From Ensifer sp. Root278 (GTDB lineage: Bacteria; Pseudomonadota; Alphaproteobacteria; Rhizobiales; Rhizobiaceae), in NCBI RefSeq assembly GCF_001429285.1, contig NZ_LMJJ01000001.1, forward strand, positions 254,565-318,564: a DNA stretch of 64,000 nt. The letters are read 5' to 3'. The stretch's first letter is position 1; each line of letters starts with the position of its first letter. The notes beneath the pieces were generated by a model. It saw only the letters and a list, made by a program, of their open reading frames with translations. It was not told the origin of the DNA and did no database searches. Shown here piece by piece: positions 16,771 to 30,263 of this stretch. The position numbers and the translations under genes were made by a program.

Positions 16771-17577
16771 TTACTTCCTGGCCTCGGCATAGGTGCCGGG
16801 CGAGAGGCCGTATTTGCTGACGAAGACGCGCGTCATGTGGCTCTGGTCGGCAAAGCCGGCCGCGAATGCGGCCTCTGCCAGCGGTGTGCCTGCGCCGATC
16901 AGTCGGCGGGCGAGATCGATGCGGCGCTGGACGATATAGGCATGCGGCGTCAGGCCGACCGCTTTCGCGAAGTTGCGCACCAGCTGGAAGCGGCTGAGCC
17001 TCGCCTCGGCGGCGAGGTCGGTAAGCGTGATCGTCGCCGTCGGATCGTCGTCGATCATCGTTTTTGCAGCGGTGACGGTTGCCGGCCTTTCGTGATGCTG
17101 GGGTTTCCCGGTGCCAAGAACGTTCGCAAGCAGCAGCAGAAGCTGCTCCTCGCGCCGGATCGTCTCATCCTCTGCTTCGGGACCGGTGATCGCCGTGAAC
17201 AGTGCCCGGAACTGGTTTGCCGCTTCGGCGTCCTTAAAAGCCGGTGAGGCAAATTCTCCAGCGTCCGAGCGGCCCTGGCTGATATCCGCGGCGGCGGTGG
17301 CAATGACGGAAGGATCGAAATAGAGTATGCGCCAGGAACGGCCGGCGTCACCGATCGGTGCGCCGTCGTGCACCTCGCCGGGGTTGACGGTGATCATGTC
17401 GCCGGCGCCGGCCTCGACCATGCCGCGGCCGCTGAGCGATTTCTGTGCGCCCTGGTAGATGAGGCCGATGCCGAACTGGTCGTGGGTATGGCGGGCGAAG
17501 GAATGGCGCGTTTCCGCCTCCACCGCGTCAATGCCCGCGGTAGCGCTGCGCAGCATCCTGAACTGACCCTTTGCCAT
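16771..17577 (-). CDS. AraC family transcriptional regulator
   Basis: Regulator of 268 residues. The N-terminal cupin-like ligand domain (HSFARHTHDQFGIGLIYQG, TVNPGEVHDGAPIGD) is followed by a C-terminal double helix-turn-helix, with LTDLAAEARLSRFQLVRNFAKAVGLTPHAYIVQRRIDLARRLI as helix-turn-helix one and FADQSHMTRVFVSKYGLSPGTY as the second. This layout is common in regulators paired with amino-acid or drug exporters. The exporter at 15763 lies 90 bases downstream on the same strand, so they may form one unit. It is divergent from nasT. Confidence 0.85.
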   Translation of the reverse strand: MAKGQFRMLRSATAGIDAVEAETRHSFARHTHDQFGIGLIYQGAQKSLSGRGMVEAGAGDMITVNPGEVHDGAPIGDAGRSWRILYFDPSVIATAAADISQGRSDAGEFASPAFKDAEAANQFRALFTAITGPEAEDETIRREEQLLLLLANVLGTGKPQHHERPATVTAAKTMIDDDPTATITLTDLAAEARLSRFQLVRNFAKAVGLTPHAYIVQRRIDLARRLIGAGTPLAEAAFAAGFADQSHMTRVFVSKYGLSPGTYAEARK

Positions 17578-17754
17578 CCGCGCGCCGCTCCTTTTACTAC
17601 GACGTCTTTTACATCGTCCGACCGCATCCCGCTATCGTCCTCAACCTCGCCCAATCGATTGGCGTTTCGCCTAAATTTTATGCATCTAATACAAATGTCA
17701 AAACATTAGGCAAATCCTGTTGCGAAAAATGCTGCGCTGCATCATGATCGAGCG

Positions 17755-18342
17755 ATGACGCACCGGGACCTCACCATTCTCGTGATTGACGAGAACGCCA
17801 TCCGCGCCTCGATCATCGAGGAAGGCTTGCATGAGGCCGGTCATCGCAAGGTCACAGTCATTCACGAGGTCCAGGGCGTCGCGCGCGCCATCGACACGCT
17901 CAGGCCCGATGTCATCGTCATCGATATCGAAAACCCCAACCGCGACATGATGGAGCATCTGTTCCAGCTCACCCGCACCGTCGGGCGGCCGATCGCCATG
18001 TTCGTCGACCGCTCCGATACGGCGTCGATAGAGGCGGCGGTGGAGGCGGGCGTCTCCGCCTATGTGGTCGACGGGCTGAAGAAGGAACGCGTCAAACCGA
18101 TCCTCGACATGGCCGTCAGCCGCTTTAATGCCTTCAGCCGGCTGCAGCGCGAGCTCGCCGATGCGAAATCGGCGCTGGAAGAGCGAAAGGTGATCGAGCG
18201 CGCCAAGGGCATCCTGATGAAGATGCGCGGGCTTTCAGAGGACGAGGCCTTCGCACTGCTGCGCCAGACGGCGATGAACGAAAAGAAGAAGATGTCGGAG
18301 ATCGCGCAGAGCGTGGTGACGGCCGCGGGCCTGCTGATGTGA
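17755..18342 (+). CDS. nasT: Nitrate-responsive ANTAR antiterminator NasT
   Basis: RNA-binding antiterminator of 195 residues for nitrate assimilation. The N-terminal receiver-like domain begins LTILVIDENAIRAS, with Asp57 in VIVIDIEN at the phosphoacceptor-like place; NasT receivers are mostly not controlled by a kinase. A coiled linker leads to a C-terminal ANTAR domain (about 140-188) reading ERAKGILMKMRGLSEDEAF, EKKKMSEIAQSVV. In characterised systems NasS sequesters NasT without nitrate, and free NasT binds a leader-RNA hairpin and prevents termination. Its stop overlaps an ATG of the nasS frame. The likely target is the leader at 19863-20000. Confidence 0.9.
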   Translation: MTHRDLTILVIDENAIRASIIEEGLHEAGHRKVTVIHEVQGVARAIDTLRPDVIVIDIENPNRDMMEHLFQLTRTVGRPIAMFVDRSDTASIEAAVEAGVSAYVVDGLKKERVKPILDMAVSRFNAFSRLQRELADAKSALEERKVIERAKGILMKMRGLSEDEAFALLRQTAMNEKKKMSEIAQSVVTAAGLLM

Positions 18343-18380
18343 GAGCGCGGTTTCCGATGCTGTCGGAAGGAGACACCGGA

Positions 18381-19682
18381 GTGAACATCATGACGACCAT
18401 CGACAATTCGCGACCCGGAGCGGCGATGGGTGACGGGCTGCCGGCGCCGGTGAGACTGGGCGGCGAGGGGGCACGGACGATCCGCGCCGGCTTCATTCCG
18501 CTGGTCGATGCCGCCGTGCTGATCGTGGCGGCGGAACTTGGCTTCGCGCGCAAGGAGGGGCTGACGCTTGATCTCGTCAAGGATGTCTCCTGGGCCAATG
18601 TACGCGACCGCCTCGCCTTTCGTCAGTTCGATATCGCCCATATGCTCTCGCCGATGCCGGTCGCCGCCATGCTCGGCCTCGGCTCCAATCCTTCGCCGAC
18701 GATCGCCCCTTTCTCGCTCGGGCGCGGCGGCAATGCGATCACGCTTTCCAACCGGCTCTTCGCCCGCATGCAGGAGGAAGGCGCCCTTGGCGAAGTAGAG
18801 GATGCGCTCGCCCATGCGCGTGCGCTCGCCGCGGTGCTTGCCCGCATGCGCCAAAGCGGCGAGGCGGCGCCAAGGCTCGGCGTCACCTATCCCTTCTCCT
18901 CACACAATTACGAGGTCCGCTACTGGCTTGCCGCAGGCGGCATCGATCCGGACCGCGACGTCAAGCTTGTGGTGGTACCGCCGCCGTTGACCTCGGATGC
19001 CCTTGCCGCCGGCGCCATCGATGGTTTCTGCGTCGGCGCGCCCTGGAACATGGTGGCCTCCGAGCGTGGACTCGGGCGCATCGTCGCCGCCAAGCAGGAC
19101 ATTTGGCCATTGGCGCCGGAAAAGGTGATCGGCATGCGGCCCGAATGGGCGGAGAGCAACGCCGAGACCGTATCGCGCCTGCTTCTGGCGCTCGACCAGG
19201 CGGCGCGCTGGTGTGATGAGCCGGACAATCGCGGCACGCTTGCCGAACTGCTTGCCGCCCCCCGTTACATCGGTGCCCCGATCGAAATCATCCGCCGGGT
19301 TCTCGCCGGAGAGTTCGCCATCGACGCGGCCGGCAACAGGCGTGTGATCGATGATTACTTCGTCTTTCATCGCGACCACGCCAACTACCCCCGTCCCGGC
19401 CAGGCGCTCTGGATCTATAGCCAGATGGCGCGCTGGGGACAGGTGCGGCTATCGCCCGAGATGCAGGCGCTGGCGGCTGCCGCCTATCGCCCCGACCTCT
19501 ATCGCCACGCGCTCGGCGAGGCCGCCGCTCCCGCCGCTCCCGCTATTCGTGTCGAAGGCGAGAGGCCGGGCGAACGCTTCATGGATGGGCACGTTTTCGA
19601 TCCCGCAGATATCGGGGCCTATGTTCGCACTTTCCCCGTTCGCGCTTTGGCGGAGAGCGTTTCGGTCGAGCAGGAGGGTTGA
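18381..19682 (+). CDS. nasS: Nitrate sensor NasS (NrtA-like, cytoplasmic)
   Basis: Protein of 433 residues related to NrtA-type nitrate-binding proteins but with no signal peptide, as expected of NasS. Shared landmarks are AGFIPLVDAAVLIVAAELGFARKEGL, LAAGGIDPDRDVKLVVVPPP, FCVGAPWN and RVIDDYFVFHRDHANYPRPGQALW. Known NasS binds nitrate or nitrite and releases NasT. GTG 18381 is chosen because AAGGAG at 18367-18372 is eight bases upstream; ATG 18390 is too far from it. It forms a two-gene operon with nasT, 346 bases before nrtA. Confidence 0.85.
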   Translation: MNIMTTIDNSRPGAAMGDGLPAPVRLGGEGARTIRAGFIPLVDAAVLIVAAELGFARKEGLTLDLVKDVSWANVRDRLAFRQFDIAHMLSPMPVAAMLGLGSNPSPTIAPFSLGRGGNAITLSNRLFARMQEEGALGEVEDALAHARALAAVLARMRQSGEAAPRLGVTYPFSSHNYEVRYWLAAGGIDPDRDVKLVVVPPPLTSDALAAGAIDGFCVGAPWNMVASERGLGRIVAAKQDIWPLAPEKVIGMRPEWAESNAETVSRLLLALDQAARWCDEPDNRGTLAELLAAPRYIGAPIEIIRRVLAGEFAIDAAGNRRVIDDYFVFHRDHANYPRPGQALWIYSQMARWGQVRLSPEMQALAAAAYRPDLYRHALGEAAAPAAPAIRVEGERPGERFMDGHVFDPADIGAYVRTFPVRALAESVSVEQEG

Positions 19683-19688
19683 GGATGG

Positions 19689-19705
19689 CGCACCATGTTT
19701 GTGCA
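19689..19705 (+). promoter_or_regulatory. Probable NtrC enhancer site upstream of nrtA
   Basis: Reads CGCACCATGTTTGTGCA, close to the NtrC consensus TGCACCA-N3-TGGTGCA (GCACCA and GTGCA arms kept). It is centred about 140 bp before the -24 box of the sigma54 promoter, a typical enhancer distance. A weaker TGC-N9-GCA match follows at 19714-19728. It implies activation under nitrogen limitation. Confidence 0.65.
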
Positions 19706-19836
19706 GAATCCCGATGCGGAATGTGTGCACCGCACAATAATTCAGCAGAGTCTACAATAGGCGCATTTATGGGCGCCGCATCTGCATCCGGAAATTACGA
19801 TTTGAATTCAAACCACTAAGGGGCGTGGCGGCGAAC

Positions 19837-19852
19837 TGGCACGGCCCTTGCT
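19837..19852 (+). promoter_or_regulatory. Sigma54 (RpoN) promoter for the nitrate operon
   Basis: TGGCACGGCCCTTGCT has the conserved -24 GG and -12 GC dinucleotides with the standard 10 bases between them and matches TGGCACG-N4-TTGC(A/T) fully. Transcription should start near 19863, leaving a leader of about 165 bases before nrtA. Confidence 0.85.
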
Positions 19853-19862
19853 TTTCTAGAAA

Positions 19863-20000
19863 TGCTTCGGTCAACGGCGATTGAAGCTATCTCAAACGCC
19901 AGATCGCGTTTGCCAACGACACCGACGTCGCAAGGTTTTTGTTTTCCGAGGGTTCCTCCCGATCCCGGACGCAAGCACCGAGCGGCGTTTTTTTATGTCC
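19863..20000 (+). promoter_or_regulatory. Putative NasT-responsive leader RNA with attenuator
   Basis: The untranslated leader between the sigma54 promoter and nrtA holds hairpins at 19893-19912 (CAAACGC/GCGTTTG, six-base loop) and just downstream CGAC-ACCGAC-GTCG, whose six-base loop has A at position 1 and G at position 4, the hallmark of ANTAR-target loops. A weak hairpin ending in seven T's (19988-19994) then precedes nrtA and looks like the terminator to be overridden. The first loop does not fit the A1/G4 rule, so the exact bipartite fold is uncertain. Confidence 0.55.
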
Positions 20001-20028
20001 GTTATCCGGCCAGCAGAGGAACCTGCGC

Positions 20029-21321
20029 ATGACCAAGTTTTCGACCGGCGGTCTGACCCGCCGAAGCCTGCTGAAGACCACCGCGACCGTTGCGCTCTTC
20101 GGCGCGGTCAAGTCGGCCTTCCCATCCGGTGCCTTTGCGCAAGGCTCCGGGCCGGAAACCACCAAGGCCGTGCTCGGCTTCATCGCGCTCACCGACTCGG
20201 CACCGCTGATCATCGCCAAGGAGAAGGGCCTCTTCGACAAATACGGCATGACCGAAGTCGAGGTGGTCAAGCAGGCCTCCTGGGGCACGACCCGCGACAA
20301 CCTGGTGCTCGGCTCCGCCGGCGCCGGCATCGACGGCGCCCATATCCTGACGCCGATGCCCTATCTGATCTCGACCGGCAAGGTCACTCAGAACAACCAG
20401 CCGCTGCCGATGGCGATCCTTGCGCGCCTCAACCTCGATGCCCAGGCAATCTCGGTCGGCCAGGCCTATGCCGACCTCAAGGTCGGCCTCGATGCATCCG
20501 CGCTCAAGGAAGCTTTCGCCAAAAAGAAGGCCGAAGGTGCCGCCGCCAAGGTGGCTATGACCTTCCCCGGCGGCACCCACGATCTCTGGATCCGCTACTG
20601 GCTCGCCGCCAGTGGCATTGATCCCGATAGCGATGTCGAAACCATCGTCGTGCCGCCGCCGCAGATGGTCGCCAACATGAAGGTCGGCACCATGGACTGT
20701 TTCTGCGTCGGCGAGCCCTGGAACGAGCAGCTCGTCAACCAGAAGATCGGCTACACCGCCGTCAACACCGCCGAAATCTGGAACGAGCATCCGGAAAAGT
20801 CCTTCGCCATGCGCGCCGACTGGGTGGAGAAGAATCCGCGTGCTGCCAGGGCGCTTACCATGGCGATCCAGGAGGCGGCGCAATGGTGCGACGACATGGC
20901 GAACAAGGACGAACTGGCGAAGATCGTCGGCAAGCGTAGCTGGTTCAACGTGCCGCCGAAGGACATCGTTGATCGCCTCAAGGGCGAGTACGACTACGGC
21001 AATGGCAAGGTCGTCGAACAGAGCCCGCACTTCATGAAGTTCTGGCGCGATCACGCCTCCTATCCCTTCCAGAGCCACGATACCTGGTTCCTCACCGAGA
21101 ATATCCGCTGGGGCAAGTTTGCGCCCGATACCGACGTCAAGGCGCTCGTCGCCAAGGTCAACCGCGAGGATATCTGGCGTGAGGCCGCCAAGGATCTGGG
21201 CGTCACCGACGTGCCGGCTTCCACCTCGCGTGGCGTCGAAAAATTCTTTGACGGCAAGATCTTCGATCCCGCGGATCCGCAAGCCTACCTCAAGAGCCTT
21301 TCGATCTCGCGCGTCGCCTGA
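20029..21321 (+). CDS. nrtA: Nitrate ABC transporter, periplasmic binding protein NrtA
   Basis: Nitrate/nitrite-binding protein of 430 residues in the CmpA/NrtA family. The N-terminus has a twin-arginine signal (LTRRSLLKTTATVALFGAV, cleavage near AFAQ), indicating Tat export. Typical segments are AVLGFIALTDSAPLIIAKEKGLFDKYG, HILTPMPYLISTGK, DCFCVGEPWNEQLV and HFMKFWRDHASYPF. ATG 20029 follows AGAGGA; longer readings would run through the terminator-like T-tract and disrupt the signal peptide. First structural gene of the nrtABC-nirBD-nasA-cysG operon. Confidence 0.9.
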   Translation: MTKFSTGGLTRRSLLKTTATVALFGAVKSAFPSGAFAQGSGPETTKAVLGFIALTDSAPLIIAKEKGLFDKYGMTEVEVVKQASWGTTRDNLVLGSAGAGIDGAHILTPMPYLISTGKVTQNNQPLPMAILARLNLDAQAISVGQAYADLKVGLDASALKEAFAKKKAEGAAAKVAMTFPGGTHDLWIRYWLAASGIDPDSDVETIVVPPPQMVANMKVGTMDCFCVGEPWNEQLVNQKIGYTAVNTAEIWNEHPEKSFAMRADWVEKNPRAARALTMAIQEAAQWCDDMANKDELAKIVGKRSWFNVPPKDIVDRLKGEYDYGNGKVVEQSPHFMKFWRDHASYPFQSHDTWFLTENIRWGKFAPDTDVKALVAKVNREDIWREAAKDLGVTDVPASTSRGVEKFFDGKIFDPADPQAYLKSLSISRVA

Positions 21322-21385
21322 GCCATCGCCGATGCTGGCCGGCATGGCCCGCCAGCATCCGCTTTCGAATACCAAGGAGAACGGC

Positions 21386-22279
21386 ATGACCGTCACCAAC
21401 CTCAAACTCAAGGGCCAGTCGGCGCCGCGACCTGCCGCGCGCGTGATCGCCTTTACCCGCTCGGCGAAACCCGGAAGCAGCCGTCCGCTGCTCGAAAGGC
21501 TCGCCGCCGGTGCCGCGAACATCGCGCCGCTCATCGTCACGCTGTCGCTGATCCTCATCACCTGGCAGGTTGTCTGTTCGGCGCCCGATTCCAGCCTGCC
21601 GTCGCCGGCGCGGGTGCTGGAGGAAAGCTGGGAGCTCATCGCCCATCCCTTCTATATCGGCCAGGGCGTCGACCAGGGTCTCTTCTGGCATATCGCGGCG
21701 AGCCTTCAGCGCGTCGCGGTCGGCTATGCGCTCGCAGCGGTCGTCGGCATCGCGCTCGGCGCGCTGGTTGGCCAGAGCCAGCTTGCCATGCGCGGGCTCG
21801 ATCCGATCTTCCAGGTGCTGCGCACTGTGCCGCCGCTTGCATGGCTGCCTTTGTCACTGGCTGCTTTCCAAGACGGCAACCCCTCGGCGATCTTCGTGAT
21901 CTTCATCACCGCCATCTGGCCGATCATCATCAATACCGCTGTGGGCATCCGCAACATCCCGCAGGATTATCAGAACGTCGCCAGGGTGCTGCGCCTCAAC
22001 GCCTTTGAGTACTTTTCGAAGATCATGTTGCCGGCCGCCGCCCCCTACATCTTCACGGGGCTGCGCATCGGCATCGGCCTCTCCTGGCTGGCGATCGTCG
22101 CGGCTGAAATGCTGATCGGCGGCGTCGGCATCGGTTTCTTCATCTGGGACGCTTGGAACTCCTCGCTGATCAGCGACATCATCGTCGCGCTGATCTATGT
22201 CGGCATCGTCGGTTTCCTGCTCGATCGCCTCATCGCCCTCGTCGGCCGCGTTGTCACCCGCGGCACCGCAACCGCTTGA
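21386..22279 (+). CDS. nrtB: Nitrate ABC transporter permease NrtB
   Basis: Inner-membrane permease of 297 residues. About five to six hydrophobic segments follow a 45-residue cytoplasmic N-terminus. The binding-protein-dependent permease loop IPQDYQNVARVLRLNAFEYFSKIMLPAAAPYIF is the EAA-type ATPase contact, and GLSWLAIVAAEML is typical of the nitrate/taurine/sulfonate permease class. ATG 21386 has AAGGAGA six bases upstream (21374-21380). It lies between nrtA and the ATPase gene, so nitrate is the expected substrate. Confidence 0.9.
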   Translation: MTVTNLKLKGQSAPRPAARVIAFTRSAKPGSSRPLLERLAAGAANIAPLIVTLSLILITWQVVCSAPDSSLPSPARVLEESWELIAHPFYIGQGVDQGLFWHIAASLQRVAVGYALAAVVGIALGALVGQSQLAMRGLDPIFQVLRTVPPLAWLPLSLAAFQDGNPSAIFVIFITAIWPIIINTAVGIRNIPQDYQNVARVLRLNAFEYFSKIMLPAAAPYIFTGLRIGIGLSWLAIVAAEMLIGGVGIGFFIWDAWNSSLISDIIVALIYVGIVGFLLDRLIALVGRVVTRGTATA

Positions 22280-22293
22280 GAGAGGGGAAAGCC

Positions 22294-23094
22294 ATGACCA
22301 AGAGCTATCTTTCGCTGGAACTGATCGACAAGAGTTTTGAACGCGGCGGCGTGCGCACAGAAGTGCTGAAACAGGTGTCGCTCTCTGTGGACAGGGGCGA
22401 GTTCATCTCGATCATCGGCCATTCCGGTTGCGGCAAGTCGACCTTGCTCAACATCGTTGCCGGCCTGACGCTGGCGACGACCGGCGTCGTGCTGCTCGAC
22501 GGCCGGGTCGCTGACGAGCCGGGGCCGGACCGCGCCGTCGTCTTCCAGAACCACTCGTTGCTGCCCTGGCTGACCGTCTACGAGAACGTCCGCCTCGGCG
22601 TCGACAAGGTCTTCTCGCGCACCAAGAGCAAGGCCGAGCGCCACGACTGGACGATGCGCAATCTTGAACTCGTGCAGATGGCGCATGCGACGGACAAGCG
22701 CCCGTCCGAAATCTCCGGCGGCATGAAGCAGCGCGTCGGCATCGCCCGCGCGCTTGCCATGGAGCCGAAGGTGCTGCTGCTCGACGAGCCTTTCGGTGCG
22801 CTGGACGCGCTGACCCGCGCGCATCTGCAGGACCAGGTGATGCAGATCCATGCCGAGCTCGGCAACACGGTGCTGATGATCACCCATGACGTGGATGAGG
22901 CGGTGCTGCTTTCCGATCGCATCGTCATGATGACCAACGGCCCATCGGCCCGCATCGGCGAGATCCTCGACGTGCCGCTCGCCCGCCCGCGCCGCCGCAT
23001 CGAGCTTGCCGGTGACCGAACCTACCTCAAATGCCGCGAAGCCGTGCTCAAGTTCCTCTACGAGCGCCACCGCTTCGTCGAAGCTGCGGAGTGA
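22294..23094 (+). CDS. nrtC: Nitrate ABC transporter ATP-binding protein
   Basis: ATPase of 266 residues that energises NrtAB. Walker [12 protein letters not shown] is near residue 45, the signature SEISGGMKQRVGIARALA near 140, Walker B VLLLDEPFGALD near 162 and H-loop MITHDVDEA near 196. It lacks the NrtA-like C-terminal regulatory domain of cyanobacterial NrtC and so resembles NrtD in layout; rhizobial annotations nonetheless call it NrtC. ATG 22294 follows GAGAGGGG. The nirB gene begins four bases after its stop. Confidence 0.88.
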   Translation: MTKSYLSLELIDKSFERGGVRTEVLKQVSLSVDRGEFISIIGHSGCGKSTLLNIVAGLTLATTGVVLLDGRVADEPGPDRAVVFQNHSLLPWLTVYENVRLGVDKVFSRTKSKAERHDWTMRNLELVQMAHATDKRPSEISGGMKQRVGIARALAMEPKVLLLDEPFGALDALTRAHLQDQVMQIHAELGNTVLMITHDVDEAVLLSDRIVMMTNGPSARIGEILDVPLARPRRRIELAGDRTYLKCREAVLKFLYERHRFVEAAE

Positions 23095-23098
23095 TCCC

Positions 23099-25561
23099 AT
23101 GGCTGAACACACCACTGAAAAGCTCGTGATCATCGGCAACGGCATGGCGCCGGGCCGCATGCTGGAAGAACTCTTCGAGAAGGCCTCGGGCCGATACGCG
23201 GTGACGATCTTCAACGCCGAGCCGCGCGTCAACTACGACCGCATCATGCTGTCGCCGGTGCTTTCGGGCGAGAAGGACTACGAGCAGATCATCATCCACG
23301 GCGACGGATGGTACATCAAGCACGAGATCACGCTCTACAAGGGCCACAAGATCATCGCCATCGACCGTGACGCCAAGACCGTCACCTCCGACCATGGCGT
23401 CACCGAGAGTTACGACAAGCTCGTGATCGCGACCGGTTCGGTGCCATTCATCATTCCGGTACCGGGCAAGGACCTGCGCGGTGTCATCACCTATCGCGAT
23501 CTCGACGATGTGCAGGCGATGCTGCTTGCGGCCCAGTCGCGCGAAAAGGCTGTCGTCATCGGTGGCGGTCTTCTCGGCCTCGAAGCGGCAGCCGGTCTCA
23601 ATGCACGCGGCATGGACGTCACCGTCCTGCACGTCATGCCGACGCTGATGGAGCGGCAGCTCGACCCGTCCGCCGGCTACCTGCTGCAGAGGGCGGTCGA
23701 AGAGCGTGGCATCAAGGTCATCACCAAAGCGAATACCAAGCGGATCGTCGGCGACGAGAAGGTCGAGGGCATTGAACTCGACGACGGCCGGATCATCCCG
23801 GCGACACTGGTCGTGATGGCGGTCGGCATCCGACCGAATGTCGGCCTTGCCAAGGAGGCGGGGCTTGCCACCAACCGCGGCATCGTCGTCGACGCCGGTA
23901 TGCAGACGTCCGACGGCCACATCATGGCGCTCGGCGAATGCGCCGAGGTCGGCGGCATGGTCTATGGCCTGGTGGCGCCGCTGTATGAGATGGCGCGGGT
24001 TGCCGCGCGTCACCTGGCCGGCGATCGCAGCGCCGCCTTTGTCCATTCCGATACGCCGACAAAACTGAAGGTGACCGGCATCAACCTCTATTCGGTCGGC
24101 GATTTCGCCGACGGCGACGGACGCGAGGAGATCGTCCTTCGCGATGCTACCGCCGGCATCTACAAGCGGCTGGTGCTCAAGGAGAACCGCATCATCGGCA
24201 CGGTGCTCTACGGCGAGACCGGCGACGGCGCCTGGTTCAACGATCTGATGAAGCGTGGCACCGACATTACCGAAATGCGCGACACGCTGATCTTTGGCCA
24301 GGCCTATCAGGGAGGGTCGCCGCTGGACCCTATGGCGGCCGTTGCAGCCTTGCCGGATGATGCGGAAATCTGCGGCTGCAACGGCGTCTGCAAGGGCAAG
24401 ATTGTCTCGACGATCGCGACCAAGAGCCTGACCTCGCTCGACGACGTGCGCGCCCATACCAAGGCGTCCGCCTCATGCGGCTCCTGTACCGGCCTCGTCG
24501 AGCAACTGATGTCGCTGACGCTCGGAGACACCTACAATCCCGCTGCCGTCCAGCCGATGTGCACCTGCACCGAGCTCGGCCATGACGACGTGCGCCGGCT
24601 GATCAAGGCCAAGGGGCTGAAGACCATTCCCGCCGTGATGCAGGAGCTGGAGTGGAAGACCTCCTGCGGCTGCGCCAAGTGCCGCCCGGCGCTCAACTAC
24701 TATCTCGTCTGCGACTGGCCGGACGAATATGCCGACGATTACCAGTCGCGCTTCATCAACGAGCGCGTCCACGCCAATATCCAGAAGGACGGCACCTATT
24801 CGGTGGTGCCGCGCATGTGGGGCGGCGTCACCAATTCCGGGGAATTGCGGGCGATCGCCGACGTGGTCGACAAGTTCGATATCCCCCTGGTCAAGGTGAC
24901 GGGAGGCCAGCGCATCGACCTGCTCGGCATCGAGAAGGAAGACCTGCCGGCGGTCTGGGCGGATCTCGGCAAGGCCGGCTTCGTCTCCGGTCAGGCCTAT
25001 GCCAAGGGGCTGCGCACGGTGAAGACCTGCGTCGGCTCCGACTGGTGCCGCTTCGGTACCCAGGATTCGACGGGGCTCGGCATCCGCATCGAAAAGTTCA
25101 TGTGGGGCTCGTGGACGCCGGCCAAGCTGAAGATGGCGGTCTCCGGCTGTCCGCGCAATTGCGCGGAAGCCACCTGCAAGGACATCGGCGTCGTCTGCGT
25201 CGACAGCGGCTTCGAGATCCATTTCGCCGGTGCTGCCGGGCTCGACATCAAGGGTACGGAGGTGCTCGGGCTGGTGAAGACCGAAGACGAGGCGCTGGAG
25301 CATATCGTGGCGCTGACGCAGATGTACCGCGAACAGGCCCGCTATCTCGAGCGCATCTACAAATGGGCGAAACGCGTCGGCCTAGACGAAATCCGCCGCC
25401 AGATCATGGGCGATGCCGACAAGCGCAAGGCCTATTTCGACCGCTTCGTCTTCAGCCAGAAATTCGCCCAGGTCGATCCCTGGTCGGAGCGCGTCTCCGG
25501 CAAGGACAAGCACGAGTTCCGGCCGATGGCGACGGTCGGTTTTTCAGAAGCCGCGGAGTGA
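23099..25561 (+). CDS. nirB: Assimilatory nitrite reductase [NAD(P)H], large subunit
   Basis: Reduces nitrite to ammonium in the cytoplasm with NirD. It has 820 residues. In order: an FAD/NAD-binding half (VIIGNGMAPGRM at 10; VVIGGGLLGLEAA near 148), a BFD-like [2Fe-2S] domain (CGCNGVCKGK near 425 and CGSCTG near 461), a second Cys cluster (CTCTELGHDD; CGCAKCRP), and a ferredoxin-type siroheme/[4Fe-4S] module with CVGSDWC near 643 and CPRNC near 683. All cluster cysteines are present. ATG 23099 is taken because the upstream reading overlaps nrtC. Siroheme is supplied by the cysG gene downstream. Confidence 0.93.
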   Translation: MAEHTTEKLVIIGNGMAPGRMLEELFEKASGRYAVTIFNAEPRVNYDRIMLSPVLSGEKDYEQIIIHGDGWYIKHEITLYKGHKIIAIDRDAKTVTSDHGVTESYDKLVIATGSVPFIIPVPGKDLRGVITYRDLDDVQAMLLAAQSREKAVVIGGGLLGLEAAAGLNARGMDVTVLHVMPTLMERQLDPSAGYLLQRAVEERGIKVITKANTKRIVGDEKVEGIELDDGRIIPATLVVMAVGIRPNVGLAKEAGLATNRGIVVDAGMQTSDGHIMALGECAEVGGMVYGLVAPLYEMARVAARHLAGDRSAAFVHSDTPTKLKVTGINLYSVGDFADGDGREEIVLRDATAGIYKRLVLKENRIIGTVLYGETGDGAWFNDLMKRGTDITEMRDTLIFGQAYQGGSPLDPMAAVAALPDDAEICGCNGVCKGKIVSTIATKSLTSLDDVRAHTKASASCGSCTGLVEQLMSLTLGDTYNPAAVQPMCTCTELGHDDVRRLIKAKGLKTIPAVMQELEWKTSCGCAKCRPALNYYLVCDWPDEYADDYQSRFINERVHANIQKDGTYSVVPRMWGGVTNSGELRAIADVVDKFDIPLVKVTGGQRIDLLGIEKEDLPAVWADLGKAGFVSGQAYAKGLRTVKTCVGSDWCRFGTQDSTGLGIRIEKFMWGSWTPAKLKMAVSGCPRNCAEATCKDIGVVCVDSGFEIHFAGAAGLDIKGTEVLGLVKTEDEALEHIVALTQMYREQARYLERIYKWAKRVGLDEIRRQIMGDADKRKAYFDRFVFSQKFAQVDPWSERVSGKDKHEFRPMATVGFSEAAE

Positions 25562-25565
25562 GGGG

Positions 25566-25901
25566 ATGGATATGAACTGGATCTCAATCGGCGACATCTC
25601 CGACATTCCGCTGAGGGGCGCGCGTTGCGTGAAGACACCCCAGGGCAAGATCGCCGTGTTCCGCACGGGCGAAAACGAGGTGTTCGCCATCGAGGATCAT
25701 TGCCCGCACAAGGGTGGACCGCTGTCGCAAGGCATCGTGCACGGCACGGCGGTGACCTGCCCCTTGCACAATTGGGTGATCTCGCTCGAAACCGGCAAGG
25801 CGCTCGGCGCCGACGACGGCGCAGTGCGCACGATCCCGGTGCGCAACGACGGCGGCGCGCTGTTCATCGCACTCGAAAGCCTGCTGATCGCGGCGGAGTA
25901 A
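25566..25901 (+). CDS. nirD: Nitrite reductase small subunit NirD, with intact Rieske motif
   Basis: Partner of NirB, 111 residues, Rieske-like fold. Both cluster motifs are complete: CPH at residues 46-48 and CPLH at 65-68, so a [2Fe-2S] centre is expected. E. coli NirD has lost these ligands, whereas several assimilatory enzymes retain them. Two ATGs are possible (25566 and 25572); the latter has better spacing to GAGGGG. It starts four bases after nirB. Confidence 0.9.
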   Translation: MDMNWISIGDISDIPLRGARCVKTPQGKIAVFRTGENEVFAIEDHCPHKGGPLSQGIVHGTAVTCPLHNWVISLETGKALGADDGAVRTIPVRNDGGALFIALESLLIAAE

Positions 25902-25959
25902 TCGCATGGATGATTGCGTTCCCCGTTCTGTTCTCTTGCGCGCTACCTCACGCTCTTCC

Positions 25960-26071
25960 TCATCCTTGTGCTTGTCACAGGGATCCAGCAGCGCCGCGTC
26001 CACGGCGCGAAGGGGACCCATCACGCGAAAGATTTCGCGTGATTGGATTCCTGTCACAAGCACAGGAATGA
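25960..26071. repeat. Nested palindromic intergenic element inside the nitrate operon
   Basis: Outer arms at 25960-25986 and 26045-26071 are imperfect inverted copies built on CTTGTGCTTGTCACAG and its complement. Inside lie a GCGCCG/CGGCGC hairpin (25991-26008) and a perfect 11-bp hairpin (26020-26043) built on ATCACGCGAAA. It occupies the nirD-nasA gap, whereas the gaps between the other structural genes from nrtA to cysG are at most 64 bases. It looks like a rhizobial intergenic mosaic element rather than a terminator, as no T-run follows. Confidence 0.7.
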
Positions 26072-26131
26072 CGGAGGAAGGGCTTCAGGGCGCCGGTTCA
26101 ACAGCGCCTCGATGCCGGAGGAGGACAGGCA

Positions 26132-28789
26132 ATGCCCTCTGAGACGAGAACCACCTGTCCCTATTGCGGTGTCGGCTGTGGTGTTATCGCGACGGTGGCC
26201 GAGGACGGCGCCGTCTCCGTTCGCGGCGACGTCGAGCATCCTGCCAATTTCGGCAGGCTGTGCTCCAAGGGCTCGGCGTTGGCCGAGACCCTCGATCTAG
26301 ACGGCAGGCTTCTTTACCCCGAGGTCGACGGCAAGCAGGCCGGCTGGGACGAGGCGCTCGATATCGTCGCCACACGTTTCGCTCAGACGATCGCAGAACA
26401 TGGGCCGGATTCGGTTGCCTTCTATGTCTCCGGGCAGTTGCTGACCGAAGACTATTACGTCGCCAACAAGCTGATGAAGGGCTTCATCGGCTCGGGCAAC
26501 ATCGACACCAATTCGCGGCTCTGCATGTCCTCCTCGGTCGCCGGTCATCGCCGCGCCTTCGGCTCGGACACGGTGCCGGGCTGCTACGAGGATCTGGAGC
26601 TTGCCGATCTCGTGGTGCTGACGGGCTCCAATCTCGCCTGGTGCCACCCGGTGCTCTACCAGCGCCTTGCCGCGGCAAAGGCGGCGCGGCCCGAGATGCG
26701 GGTGGTGGTGATCGATCCGCGCCGCACGATGACCGCCGATATCGCCGACATGCATCTTGCCATCCGGCCGGATGGCGACGCGGCGCTGTTCAACGGCCTT
26801 TTCGCCCATCTGGCCGCCAGCCCCACTAACGACCGGTCCTTTATCGCTGCCCATACCAGCGGCTTCGCCGAAGCCTTCGCAGCGGCGAGCGCGCTTGACG
26901 AGTCCGCCTTGGCACAATCGACCGGGCTCGAACCGTCGGAAATCACCGCCTTCTTCCGCCTGTTCGAAACGACGGAAAACGTCGTCACCTGCTACAGCCA
27001 GGGCGTCAACCAGTCCTCCTCGGGCACCGACAAGGTCAACGCCATCATCAACTGTCATCTCGTCACCGGCCGCATTGGCCGGCCGGGCATGGGGCCGTTT
27101 TCGCTGACCGGTCAGCCCAATGCCATGGGCGGCCGCGAGGTCGGCGGCCTCGCCAACATGCTTGCCGCCCATATGGACATCGAAAAGGCCGGGCACCGCG
27201 ATCAGGTGCGCCGCTTCTGGGGCGCGCCATCGATCGCGACCAGGCCGGGGCTGAAGGCGGTCGACATGTTTCGTGCGGTTGCAGACGGCCGGATCAAGGC
27301 GATCTGGATCATGGCGACCAATCCCGTGGTCTCCATGCCGGATGCCGACGCCGTCGAGGCCGCACTCAAGGCCTGTCCCTTCGTCGTCGTCTCCGATGTG
27401 CTCCAGGAGACCGACACCACCCGTCACGCCCATGTGCTCCTGCCCTCGCTCGGCTGGGGCGAGAAGGACGGGACGGTCACCAATTCCGAGCGCCGCATTT
27501 CCCGTCAGCGCGGCTTTCTCGCGGCCCCGGGGGAGGCCCGCGCCGACTGGTGGCAGCTGAACGAAGTGGCGCGCCGTATGGGGTTCCAGGGTGCCTTCGC
27601 CTATACCTCACCCTCAGAAATCTTCGCCGAGCATGCTGGTCTTTCGGCGTTCGAGAATGACGGGCGGCGCGATTTCGACATCGGCGCCCATGCGGAGATC
27701 GATGCTGCGGCCTACGACGCGCTCGCGCCGTTCCAATGGCCGCAATCGCTGGGGAAGCCAGAGGGCGAGACCCGCTTCTTTGCCGATGGTGGCTTCTTCC
27801 ACGCGGATGGGCGTGCCCGCTTCGTCGCGGTTGCGAGCGCCGTGCCGGCCCGCGTCAGTGGCGGCTTCCCTTTGACCTTGAACACCGGCCGCGTGCGCGA
27901 CCACTGGCACACGATGACCCGCACCGGTAAGAGCGCGCGCCTCTCCGCCCACCTCGCCGAACCTTTCGTCGAGATCCACCCGCGTGACGCGATGGATCTT
28001 GGCATCGCCCCCGCCGATCTCGTTTCCCTTGAGAGCCCTTACGGCTCGGCGATCGTCCGCGCACTCATCACTGAGCGCCAGGCGCGTGGCAATCTCTTCG
28101 TGCCCATGCACTGGAACGACCAGTTTGCCGCCAAGGCGCGCATCGATGCGCTGGTCCCGCCGGTTACCGATCCGGTCTCGGGCCAGCCGGCCTCGAAAAA
28201 TGCCGCCGTTGCGATCCGCCGTTTTTCCGCTTCGACCTACGGCTTTGCGGTCAGCGCGTCGAAACCCTCGGGTCTCGATCTCGGCTACTGGGCCGTCGCC
28301 AAGGCGAGGGGCGGTTGGCGTCTGGAACTTGCTGCGGAGACGACGCCGGAGGATTGGGTCGCCTGGTGCCGGAAGACCTTTGGCCTTACTGGGGACATCG
28401 AGCCGATCGGCTATGCGGATGGGCCCTCCGGCCAAAGACGGCTCGCCTTCTTCGACGGCGATCGCTTGCTGCTGGCGCTGTTTCTCGCACCTGAACCCGT
28501 CGCCGTAGCCCGCAACTGGGCGGTCGAACAGCTGAGCGCCTCGCATACGGACCTGCGCACGCGCTTTGCGCTCGTTGCCGGCCGGCCGGGCGCCGACCGG
28601 CCGGACCCCGGCGCGACCGTCTGCTCCTGTTTCAATGTCGGCGTCAATCAGATCGTCGCGGCTGTCCGCGGCGGCTGCCGTTCGGTTGAAGCTGTCGGGC
28701 GGGCGCTGAGCGCCGGAACCAATTGCGGCTCCTGCCGCGCCGAGATCAGGGGGATCGTCGATGGATGCCTTGCTGCCGCTGCGGAATGA
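26132..28789 (+). CDS. nasA: Assimilatory nitrate reductase catalytic subunit
   Basis: Cytoplasmic molybdenum enzyme reducing nitrate to nitrite, 885 residues. N-terminal [4Fe-4S] ligands are CPYCGVGC (Cys9, 12, 16) and LCSKGS. Next come the Mo-bisMGD domains (SNLAWCHPVLYQRL, VVVIDPRRTMTADIADMHLAIRPDGD, GVNQSSSGTDKVNAIINCHLVTGRIGRPGMGPFSLTGQPNAMGGREVGGL). A C-terminal BFD-like [2Fe-2S] domain has CSC near 832 and NCGSC near 867; this extra domain is typical of Klebsiella NasA-type enzymes. No Tat signal, as expected for the assimilatory form. It overlaps cysG by 29 bases. Confidence 0.93.
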   Translation: MPSETRTTCPYCGVGCGVIATVAEDGAVSVRGDVEHPANFGRLCSKGSALAETLDLDGRLLYPEVDGKQAGWDEALDIVATRFAQTIAEHGPDSVAFYVSGQLLTEDYYVANKLMKGFIGSGNIDTNSRLCMSSSVAGHRRAFGSDTVPGCYEDLELADLVVLTGSNLAWCHPVLYQRLAAAKAARPEMRVVVIDPRRTMTADIADMHLAIRPDGDAALFNGLFAHLAASPTNDRSFIAAHTSGFAEAFAAASALDESALAQSTGLEPSEITAFFRLFETTENVVTCYSQGVNQSSSGTDKVNAIINCHLVTGRIGRPGMGPFSLTGQPNAMGGREVGGLANMLAAHMDIEKAGHRDQVRRFWGAPSIATRPGLKAVDMFRAVADGRIKAIWIMATNPVVSMPDADAVEAALKACPFVVVSDVLQETDTTRHAHVLLPSLGWGEKDGTVTNSERRISRQRGFLAAPGEARADWWQLNEVARRMGFQGAFAYTSPSEIFAEHAGLSAFENDGRRDFDIGAHAEIDAAAYDALAPFQWPQSLGKPEGETRFFADGGFFHADGRARFVAVASAVPARVSGGFPLTLNTGRVRDHWHTMTRTGKSARLSAHLAEPFVEIHPRDAMDLGIAPADLVSLESPYGSAIVRALITERQARGNLFVPMHWNDQFAAKARIDALVPPVTDPVSGQPASKNAAVAIRRFSASTYGFAVSASKPSGLDLGYWAVAKARGGWRLELAAETTPEDWVAWCRKTFGLTGDIEPIGYADGPSGQRRLAFFDGDRLLLALFLAPEPVAVARNWAVEQLSASHTDLRTRFALVAGRPGADRPDPGATVCSCFNVGVNQIVAAVRGGCRSVEAVGRALSAGTNCGSCRAEIRGIVDGCLAAAAE

Positions 28790-30263
28790 AATTCAATCGC
28801 GCCGCGAGCCGGTGAGCATGGCCGCGCTTGCCAAGCTGCCGGTCTTCTGGTCGCTCGAAGCCAAGCGTGTCGTGGTGGCGGGCGGCAGCGATGCCGCGGC
28901 CTGGAAGGCGGAACTGCTGGCCGCCTGCGGCGCCGAGGTTCATATCTATGCGCCGGAGGAAGAGCTCGGCGAGGTCTGCGCGGCTTTGATCAGCCAGGGC
29001 GCCGCTCATCCCACTGGTCGTCTCGTCCATCACCGCGAGAGCTGGCAGGCGAATGTGCTTGCCGGTGCCGCGCTTGCGGTCGCCGATTGCGAGAGCGACG
29101 ACGAAGCGCAAGCCTTTTTTGCGGCGGCGCAACAGGCCGGCGTACCGGTCAATGTCATCGACAAGCCCGCTTTCTGCCAGTTTCAGTTCGGTTCCATCGT
29201 CAACCGCTCGCCGGTCGTGGTGTCGATCTCGACCGATGGTGCGGCACCCATCCTCGCCCAGGCGATCCGCCGGCGCATCGAGACGCTGCTGCCGCCGGTG
29301 CTGAAGGATTGGGCAGCGCTGGCGCAGGCTTTGCGAGACAAGGTCAATGCCCGGCTCAAGCCCGGCGCGCCGCGCCGCGCCTTCTGGGAGCGGTTCGTCG
29401 ATCTCGCTTTTCAAGCGACACCGGAGGAGGGTGTCGAGACGCGGCTGGTGGCGGAGATGGAGCGCTTGTCGGCGAACCATGCCGCCACCGGTCGCGTGAC
29501 GCTTGTCGGCGCTGGCCCCGGCGACAGCGAGTATCTGACGCTGAAGGCGGTACGGGCCCTACAAGCCGCCGACGTCATCCTGTTCGACGATCTCGTTTCG
29601 AACGAGGTTCTGGAGCTCGCCCGGCGCGAGGCCAAGCGCATGCTGGTCGGCAAGCGCGGCGGGCGCGAGAGCTGCCGGCAGGAGGACATCAACGACATGA
29701 TGGTGGCGCTGGCGCGCGCCGGCAAACGTGTCGTTCGCCTGAAGGCCGGCGATCCCATGATCTTCGGCCGTGCCGGCGAAGAGATCGCCCGTCTGGAGCA
29801 GGAAGGGATCCCGGTCGATGTCGTGCCCGGCATCACCGCCGCAAGCGCCATGGCGGCGCGTCTCGGCCTGTCGCTCACCCATCGCGACCATGCCCAGGCG
29901 GTGCGCTTCGTCACCGGCCACTCCCGTCATGGCGGTTTGCCGTCGGACATGGACTGGCGCGCTTTGGCCGATCCGAAGACCACGACGATCTTCTACATGG
30001 GCGGTCGCACTGCACCTGCTATCGCCGCGCGCCTCCAGGCGGAGGGATTATCCGGCGAGACCCCGGTCGTCATCTCGGCCAATGTCAGTCGCGACAACGA
30101 GCGGCGCTGGCAAGGCGCCTTGCGCGACCTTGCCACAGGCATCGCCGTGATCGGCTACGACGATCCGGTCCTGATCGGCATAGGTGCCGCTTTTGGCGTC
30201 AGGCGGGTGCCGAGGGCGGCCATCCGACCTGCGCCTTTTGCCGCAGGTTCGCTTGCAGGTTGA
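28761..30263 (+). CDS. cysG: Siroheme synthase CysG
   Basis: Bifunctional enzyme of 500 residues making siroheme, the cofactor of NirB. The N-terminal precorrin-2 dehydrogenase/ferrochelatase domain (VVVAGGSDAAAWKAELL near 35; SPVVVSISTDGAAPILAQAIRRRIE) is followed from about 240 by a SAM uroporphyrinogen-III methyltransferase domain (VTLVGAGPGDSEYLTLKAVRAL; RLKAGDPMIFGRAGEE; VVPGITAASAMAARLGLSLTHR). ATG 28761 lies inside the nasA end with AGGGGGAT six bases before it; ATG 28818 is a weaker choice. Last gene of the nitrate operon, so siroheme supply is coordinated with the enzyme that needs it. Confidence 0.92.
   Translation: MDALLPLRNEIQSRREPVSMAALAKLPVFWSLEAKRVVVAGGSDAAAWKAELLAACGAEVHIYAPEEELGEVCAALISQGAAHPTGRLVHHRESWQANVLAGAALAVADCESDDEAQAFFAAAQQAGVPVNVIDKPAFCQFQFGSIVNRSPVVVSISTDGAAPILAQAIRRRIETLLPPVLKDWAALAQALRDKVNARLKPGAPRRAFWERFVDLAFQATPEEGVETRLVAEMERLSANHAATGRVTLVGAGPGDSEYLTLKAVRALQAADVILFDDLVSNEVLELARREAKRMLVGKRGGRESCRQEDINDMMVALARAGKRVVRLKAGDPMIFGRAGEEIARLEQEGIPVDVVPGITAASAMAARLGLSLTHRDHAQAVRFVTGHSRHGGLPSDMDWRALADPKTTTIFYMGGRTAPAIAARLQAEGLSGETPVVISANVSRDNERRWQGALRDLATGIAVIGYDDPVLIGIGAAFGVRRVPRAAIRPAPFAAGSLAG

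Follow-up and report, generated by a model that had tools for sequence, protein, structure and literature searches.

The window analyzed here, a stretch of 64,000 nucleotides from Ensifer sp. Root278, carries nasT and nasS, then a gap of 346 bp, and then nrtA, nrtB, nrtC, nirB, nirD, a nitrate reductase gene and cysG in succession (20029-30263, Table 1). A whole-genome search returned a single ANTAR match, which is nasT, and its product was 97% identical to its nearest counterpart in the named collection, that of Ensifer sesbaniae, in a collection from which very near records may be absent. The genome also has one ntrC match above cut-off and one rpoN match. The name nasS was assigned from gene order and from an NMT1-like domain that is common to NrtA, and NCBIfam gave no match for it at 1e-10. 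For nrtA the NCBIfam result was the SsuA family alone, under that family's cut-off. Matches to ntrB, ntrCD, nirB, nirD and cysG were above cut-off in the same collection, and those of the nitrate reductase were all below it.

Table 1. Genes and sequence features of the nasTS-nrtABC region, in positions of the window.
Feature	Position	Strand	Basis or remark
nasT, receiver and ANTAR antiterminator protein	17755..18342	+	ANTAR and Response_reg Pfam matches above cut-off
nasS, nitrate-sensor partner of NasT	18339..19682	+	PF13379 NMT1_2, 246 bits
NtrC-like site CGCACCATGTTTGTGCA	19689..19705	+	Matches the consensus at 10 of 12 bases; 148 bases upstream of where the -24 box begins
Second short palindrome, TGTGC-ACC-GCACA	19724..19736	+	Sequence; NtrC-like score nearby just 7 of 12
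Candidate sigma54 (-24/-12) promoter TGGCACGGCCCTTGCT	19837..19852	+	Exact consensus match
P1, 9-bp hairpin, hexaloop AACGGC (19873-19878); predicted first ANTAR recognition hairpin	19864..19887	+	Folding; adjoins the inferred transcription start
Pm, middle (linker) hairpin, 7 bp, loop CAGATC	19893..19912	+	-7.6 kcal/mol; loop not ANTAR
P2, 4-bp hairpin CGAC-ACCGAC-GTCG; predicted second ANTAR recognition hairpin and antiterminator	19917..19930	+	-3.1 kcal/mol alone
Intrinsic terminator hairpin	19924..19989	+	5' arm 19924-19931, 3' arm 19982-19989; -30.9 kcal/mol
Seven-T tract of the terminator	19988..19994	+	Sequence
nrtA, nitrate-binding protein	20029..21321	+	PF13379 NMT1_2, 354 bits; name from context and domain
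nrtB, nrtC, nirB, nirD, assimilatory nitrate reductase, cysG	21332..30263	+	NCBIfam

Within the gap, the original prediction had pointed to an NtrC-like palindrome, a -24/-12 promoter and a leader with an ANTAR-like loop and a run of seven T before nrtA, and each of these is present. The consensus for sigma54 promoters is TGGCAC-N5-TTGCW, and the candidate promoter is the sole sequence in the 64 kb that matches it with no or one mismatch (the other 18 matches have two); the total of 19 sigma54-type matches, against 25.6 expected, is no excess. By its sequence this is a sigma54 promoter with predicted dependence on RpoN, from which transcription would start near 19863 (about 19861-19866). A scan of 17500-21500 for promoters of the sigma70 type found none. 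The NtrC consensus is TGCACC-N5-GGTGCA, and when the upstream regions (260 bases) were shuffled by dinucleotides, 1% of the shuffles reached the score of 10 found in the window. Among 90 distinct upstream regions five score 10, four of these being the window and its closest relatives, and 23 score 9 or 10 of 12, as compared to 11% of shuffles. In 38 of the 90, the start of the best NtrC-like site falls between 150 and 141 bases upstream of the -24 box, and this retention of position in related sequences gives the site support, short of proof. Beyond the nearest species the match is weak, which counts against the reading that we prefer below. The palindrome intended in the original prediction could instead be the second, shorter one (Table 1), possibly a further activator site, for which the case is weak.

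The leader (19864-19996) folds at -51.3 kcal/mol with a z-score of -3.86, which none of 200 shuffles equaled, and its unconstrained fold consists of P1, the 7-bp middle hairpin and the terminator. The terminator is an 8-bp stem beneath an internal loop, and a simple terminator scan of 17500-21500, which demands a loop of 3-8 bases directly above the stem, found none. Bases 19924-19930 are common to P2 and the 5' arm of the terminator. When the transcript was folded as a series of prefixes, with its start set at 19863, the probability of P2 was 0.72-1.0 in every prefix computed up to 19984 and 0.01 at 19986, so that P2 is lost at 19984-19986, once the 3' arm of the terminator has emerged. Given the difference between the energies of P2 and the terminator (-3.1 and -30.9 kcal/mol), a protein would be needed to hold P2.

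To compare leaders, we searched for a pattern of promoter, P1 loop, GAC-N6-GTC and a T run, which fixed the promoter and the initial AA of the P1 loop and left the P2 loop free. The pattern was found in 69 of 92 loci (L013-L104), which with the window make 70 records and 63 distinct leaders. The other 23 loci comprise 20 that retain the promoter and P1 and diverge downstream and three (L022, L035, and L039) without such a leader. The P1 loops of the 63 leaders are AACGGC (46), AATGGC (14), AAAGGC (2) and AACGAC (1), and the P2 loop is ANNGAC in all 63; both loops therefore have A1 and G4 in every distinct leader, the AA of the P1 loop being imposed by the search. The eight basal pairs of the terminator are likewise retained in 63 of 63, with one pair U-A instead of U-G in two leaders. 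Four of the seven inner pairs of P1 are changed on both sides among the 63. P2 is invariant across them, and thus lacks covariation support there, which counts against our preferred reading; outside the 63 its stem does change on both sides, to GGC/GCC (L107, L116) and to CAGC/GCTG (R. leguminosarum-type leaders). For P1, the middle hairpin and P2 together the covariation score was 0.320, as compared to 0.188 for shuffled alignments and with none of 500 as high, a comparison in which related sequences can beat shuffles without any structure. Of the cells of the proposed pairs in the 63 leaders, 92% are paired, against 24-40% when the partners are slid. We also folded 64 leaders (the 63, window included, and that of S. 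meliloti 1021) as growing transcripts, and P2 had a probability of at least 0.5 in 61 of the 64 at the early stage, in 48 at the late-prefix stage and in none at full length.

The 20 Rhizobium/Rhizobiales loci that diverge after P1 (L042, L052, L053, L055, L062-L064, L067-L069, L079, L081, L084, L085, L088, L090, L091, L097, L099, and L104) form a group of their own, in that the promoter, P1 and, by eye, a stretch like the middle hairpin are kept and the place of P2 and the terminator is taken by a second ANTAR target, complete with a terminator of its own. The second hairpin of this target, CAGC-N6-GCTG, and the terminator are present in 20 of 20; its first hairpin was identified by a strict pattern in 17, and the linker is 1-3 nt in the 18 listed. 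A frame for an MFS transporter stands in place of nrtA (by Pfam for L081 only; L042, L064, and L091 are alike). The leaders of these loci look like a fusion of two leaders.

Searches beyond these loci added further leaders. The narK model gave 41 matches across the order, of which 29 new loci were examined and the 11 weakest left out; nine of the 29 passed our scanner, 17 look like chance, and three (L105, L106, and L126), which the scanner did not pass, look by eye like real ANTAR targets with short linkers. L139-L141 also carry leader features and were not passed. A second model, R1, gave 23 matches across the order, the best 12 of which, window included, are real leaders by eye; four of the weaker 11 were looked at and none shows a leader. 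Across the class, R1 matched three places besides the window and narK seven besides the window and G132, and L159-L162 and L166 passed the scanner. In the genome of Root278 itself R1 matched at the window's place only, and we found no second NasT target there with strict filters that may lose weak ones. Leader-like DNA also occurs in 223 plasmid records (E up to 1e-5), by record name 115 from Sinorhizobium, 107 from Rhizobium and one from Ensifer.

The published features of ANTAR targets are A1/G4 hexaloops, C:G closing pairs and a second hairpin that overlaps the terminator (PMC3369931, PMC7496416). The Ensifer leader has two hairpins in tandem, each at least 3 bp long and with a loop of six bases (P1, 9 bp; P2, 4 bp), A1 and G4 in both loops (AACGGC and ACCGAC), C:G closing pairs, and a P2 that is mutually exclusive with the terminator, falling from 0.72 to 0.01 as the terminator forms. 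Its linker of 29 nt lies outside both the 5-12 nt and the 2-25 nt given for such targets, and by that length we class the leader as a variant of the ANTAR target rather than an ordinary member, with NasT binding predicted. The original prediction had judged the two hairpins an incomplete, possibly divergent match to the ANTAR pair, a judgment that came of pairing the wrong hairpins: the pair with A1/G4 in both loops, C:G closure and terminator overlap is P1 and P2. An ordinary two-hairpin target in which the middle hairpin is the second recognition element would agree with the minimum-energy fold, where that hairpin comes second and has a six-base loop closed by C:G. Its loop, CAGATC, lacks A1 and G4, though, none of the 63 leaders has an ANTAR-like loop at this place (lengths 3-9, sequence varied), and it has no overlap with the terminator, unlike 19917-19930, which overlaps it and has a proper loop in 63 of 63; we find this alternative hardly credible.

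What pointed to P2 as the second recognition hairpin was the consensus of the Rfam narK RNA (RF03032), which has a -24/-12 promoter, a P1 with the loop AACGGC and, following it, CGACAAAGACGUCGC. The latter can fold as CGAC-AAAGAC-GUCG where the window reads CGAC-ACCGAC-GTCG (19917-19930). RF03032 draws P1 only and has about 7 nt between P1 and CGAC, unlike the 29-nt linker of Ensifer. No Rfam family matched the 64 kb at its gathering threshold, and a relaxed search returned narK, at 32.7 bits (gathering score 43.2). With E up to 10, RF03032 matched 14 places in the genome, only that of the window with an E below 0.1; the second (L003) and third (L004) places were rejected, as by eye they look like coding sequence. 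RF03032 itself appears to combine a sigma54 promoter and an ANTAR target, with the second hairpin of the target shown as unpaired. At looser settings, 17 of 28 narK-family loci (L191-L218) pass for two A1/G4 hexaloops, an overlapping terminator and the promoter, and by eye the frames after these 17 resemble NarK-type transporters or NrtA/NasS-like proteins.

The feature that sets the Ensifer leader apart is the linker, 20 of whose 29 nt lie inside the middle hairpin and nine outside. All 63 distinct aligned leaders have this hairpin; their linkers are 25-34 nt long (26-34 by another stem rule), with 5-13 nt outside it. Five of the seven pairs of the stem are changed on both sides. In 49 of the 63 leaders, 5% or fewer of mononucleotide shuffles reach the energy of the hairpin, the figure being 56% in L074, so that in a single leader the energy is only modestly unusual and the case for the hairpin rests on covariation. 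In distant leaders with long linkers (L112, L115, L139-L141, L159, L161, and L166) hairpins of other sequence occur at the same place.

We also scanned the fetched loci (2.31 million bases, both strands) for linkers of any length, and obtained 123 hits, 98 of them with an upstream promoter motif. The 98 represent 12 distinct linker-and-loop combinations at 2-11 nt and 60 at 25-38 nt, numbers that include decoys inside one leader (L138, L162) and come from loci fetched by models or proteins favoring one type. A hairpin was present in 14 of 14 long linkers inspected, out of the 60 long combinations. The 25 hits without a promoter motif consist of 20 narK-type targets and five that look like chance. 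That the middle hairpin is a neutral insertion would agree with the existence of short-linker leaders that lack it, and is very improbable against the two-sided changes in five of seven pairs and its presence in both the 14 inspected long linkers and the 63 aligned leaders. An earlier statement that no linkers of 12-24 nt exist was dropped, as a wider sample had linkers of 16 nt (L209) and 18 nt (L208), both from other lineages of the phylum and without a strong hairpin; the spacing rule is therefore not absolute.

Published linkers are mostly short. The eut leaders have 5-12 nt, and induction was severely reduced with as few as 14 nt (PMC3369931); a 20-nt extension abolished antitermination by EutV in vitro (PMC8934654); curated actinobacterial targets span 2-25 nt (PMC8164766); and the 2012 definition of the ANTAR target, in the text covered, speaks only of a "variable linker". 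The rhizobial linkers exceed nearly all of these lengths unless they are folded, and when folded the part outside the hairpin matches them. Counted in full, the linkers of the 63 leaders are roughly equal in length to the extended linker with which EutV lost antitermination. From the conservation of the hairpin and the published linker experiments, we infer that it would keep P1 and P2 within reach of one NasT dimer, a spacer role argued from geometry and by analogy with a different protein, EutV. It is feasible that the hairpin is instead a separate element, such as a pause site that buys time for NasT or a binding site for a small RNA or some other protein, and the conservation of the stem under changing sequence and an ATA common to many of the 63 loops would suit such an element. 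The loops vary widely in sequence and length, however, and the hairpins of other sequence in distant leaders suit a spacer better, and we therefore think a separate element unlikely.

More broadly, we give about even credence to a class of ANTAR antiterminators in which a third hairpin, as a folded spacer, brings P1 and P2 back to the short distance that one dimer needs, a class common in Rhizobiaceae and present in other Alphaproteobacteria, and in which a single NasT can act within one cell on a folded linker of 29 nt and on a bare one of 2 nt. The latter part derives from G296, a genome with one NasT match and two leaders: L138, with a folded 29-nt linker before an NrtA-like frame (PF13379, 360 bits), and L156, with a 2-nt linker before a transporter-like frame alike to that of L081, which matches MFS_1. 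If both are functional, one NasT accepts both geometries. On a NasT tree of 27 rows, the label of long or short linker needs five changes and 0% of 200 bootstrap trees need only one, with labels of our own assignment (L182 and L183, for leaders L105 and L106, short by eye; L186, for leader L162, short though ambiguous; L167, for G296, long though both types are there). The well supported branches force just one label change, which weakened an earlier claim of many independent origins; the tree suggests several gains or losses of the middle hairpin and is also compatible with one origin. We found no description of a third hairpin or folded linker in an ANTAR target in the part of the literature covered, which does not establish its absence from print. 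A curation limit of 2-25 nt, as used in Actinobacteria, would discard nearly all 63 leaders, and NasT targets in rhizobia may consequently be under-annotated.

The leader of L162 (G589) has, before its terminator, three successive hairpins with A1/G4 hexaloops (AATGAT, AATGGC, and AACGAC), and its middle hairpin could itself be a recognition hairpin.

The reading that we consider probable for the window is that an NtrC/sigma54-controlled start is combined with NasT antitermination across a folded spacer. Under nitrogen shortage, NtrC bound about 150 bp upstream would activate sigma54 polymerase at the candidate promoter, and the transcript would begin close to P1. P1, the middle hairpin and the short P2 would, as computed, fold in the order in which they emerge, the middle hairpin taking up most of the linker. 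Nitrate would free NasT from NasS, and NasT would then grip the A..G.. hexaloops of P1 and P2 so that P2 stays folded, 19924-19930 are barred from the terminator and polymerase reads through into nrtABC-nirBD-nitrate reductase-cysG. With no free NasT, the 3' arm of the terminator would displace P2 and transcription would stop at 19988-19994, in keeping with the computed structures. The step that involves the NasT protein is modeled on work in Paracoccus, Klebsiella and Enterococcus.

Each part of this arrangement has a known relative. The EutV/NasR targets are alike in the two A1/G4 hexaloop hairpins, the C:G closing pairs, the terminator overlap and the ANTAR protein gene next door (PMC3369931, PMC7496416, PMC8934654), and differ from Ensifer in that the eut linkers are short and that of Ensifer has its own conserved hairpin. 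Paracoccus denitrificans nas (PMC3795266, PMC5424462) and Bradyrhizobium nos/nas (PMC6759348) have the same NasS-NasT pair and type of operon, a leader with hairpins that separates nasTS from the structural genes, and an NtrC layer on top. In Paracoccus the tested NtrC site is at nasT, whereas in Ensifer the sigma54 promoter and NtrC-like site are directly before the leader, and the text covered for Paracoccus describes no third hairpin (PMC3795266, PMC5424462), unlike the Ensifer leader. Klebsiella nasF is similar in its Ntr-controlled start and nitrate-controlled antitermination and uses a one-component sensor, NasR, where the Ensifer locus has NasS-NasT (PMC5424462). The two-layer (AND-gate) logic is already known from Klebsiella (Ntr and NasR) and Paracoccus (NtrBC and NasTS) (PMC5424462).

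An AND gate of nitrogen starvation and nitrate had been proposed for the window from the outset, and its two layers, NtrC/sigma54 initiation and NasT attenuation, are supported by the anatomy of the leader, by how well it is kept in relatives and by the nasT, ntrC and rpoN genes that the genome carries. Its strict form is spoken against by S. meliloti, where strains 1021 and 2011 have the same leader ahead of nirB and where nirB rose about 1000-fold once ammonium was removed, whereas with nitrate it was "only slightly induced" (PMC6616083); regulation in S. meliloti was called unknown in 2019 literature. The leader of S. meliloti folds less cleanly, which also counts against our preferred reading. 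In Paracoccus, activity was "relatively unaffected" when the second hairpin of the leader (HII) was mutated, a misfit to a simple gate (PMC5424462), and in a Bradyrhizobium nasT mutant narK and bjgb, which have predicted NasT hairpins, went up, not down (PMC6759348). The nitrate gate may be weak in vivo. A nitrate layer that is mostly open, with NasT in excess of NasS, expression set by NtrC/sigma54 and ammonium, and the leader serving to trim it, would accommodate the S. meliloti data and also the complete nasABGHC transcript that Paracoccus makes even in glutamate, for which a sufficient amount of free NasT was the explanation given (PMC5424462). Set against such a layer are the conservation of both loops and of the terminator pairing in 63 leaders, which implies that the switch is used, and the severe reduction in expression and in growth on nitrate that followed mutation of hairpin HI in Paracoccus (PMC5424462); on balance we regard it as possible and somewhat unlikely, and retain the two-layer reading with a folded spacer.

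The folded linkers bear on a disputed point, whether an ANTAR dimer binds both hairpins at once or in turn. In the text covered, the EutV structure had no single dimer on the two hairpins of the same RNA, and the proposal made with it was that the hairpins are bound successively, under a strict limit on their spacing (PMC8934654). Leaders in which about 20 nt have been added and folded are nature's counterpart of the published linker experiment and open the point to direct testing in a laboratory strain, S. meliloti 1021 being a carrier of the element. Nitrate control is also of relevance to soil nitrogen turnover.

On pSymB of S. meliloti 1021 (NC_003078.1) the three-hairpin leader (1215042-1215204; L190:2480-2800) lies directly before nirB, and the sequence before nirB matches, by eye, the last part of nrtC, as though a deletion had removed nrtABC and spared the leader. 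In G485 and G580, NasT-type leaders (L161 and L166) with hairpin-bearing linkers of 25 and 30 nt, respectively, precede a frame that by eye resembles an outer-membrane protein, and the regulon may include a porin in these genomes.
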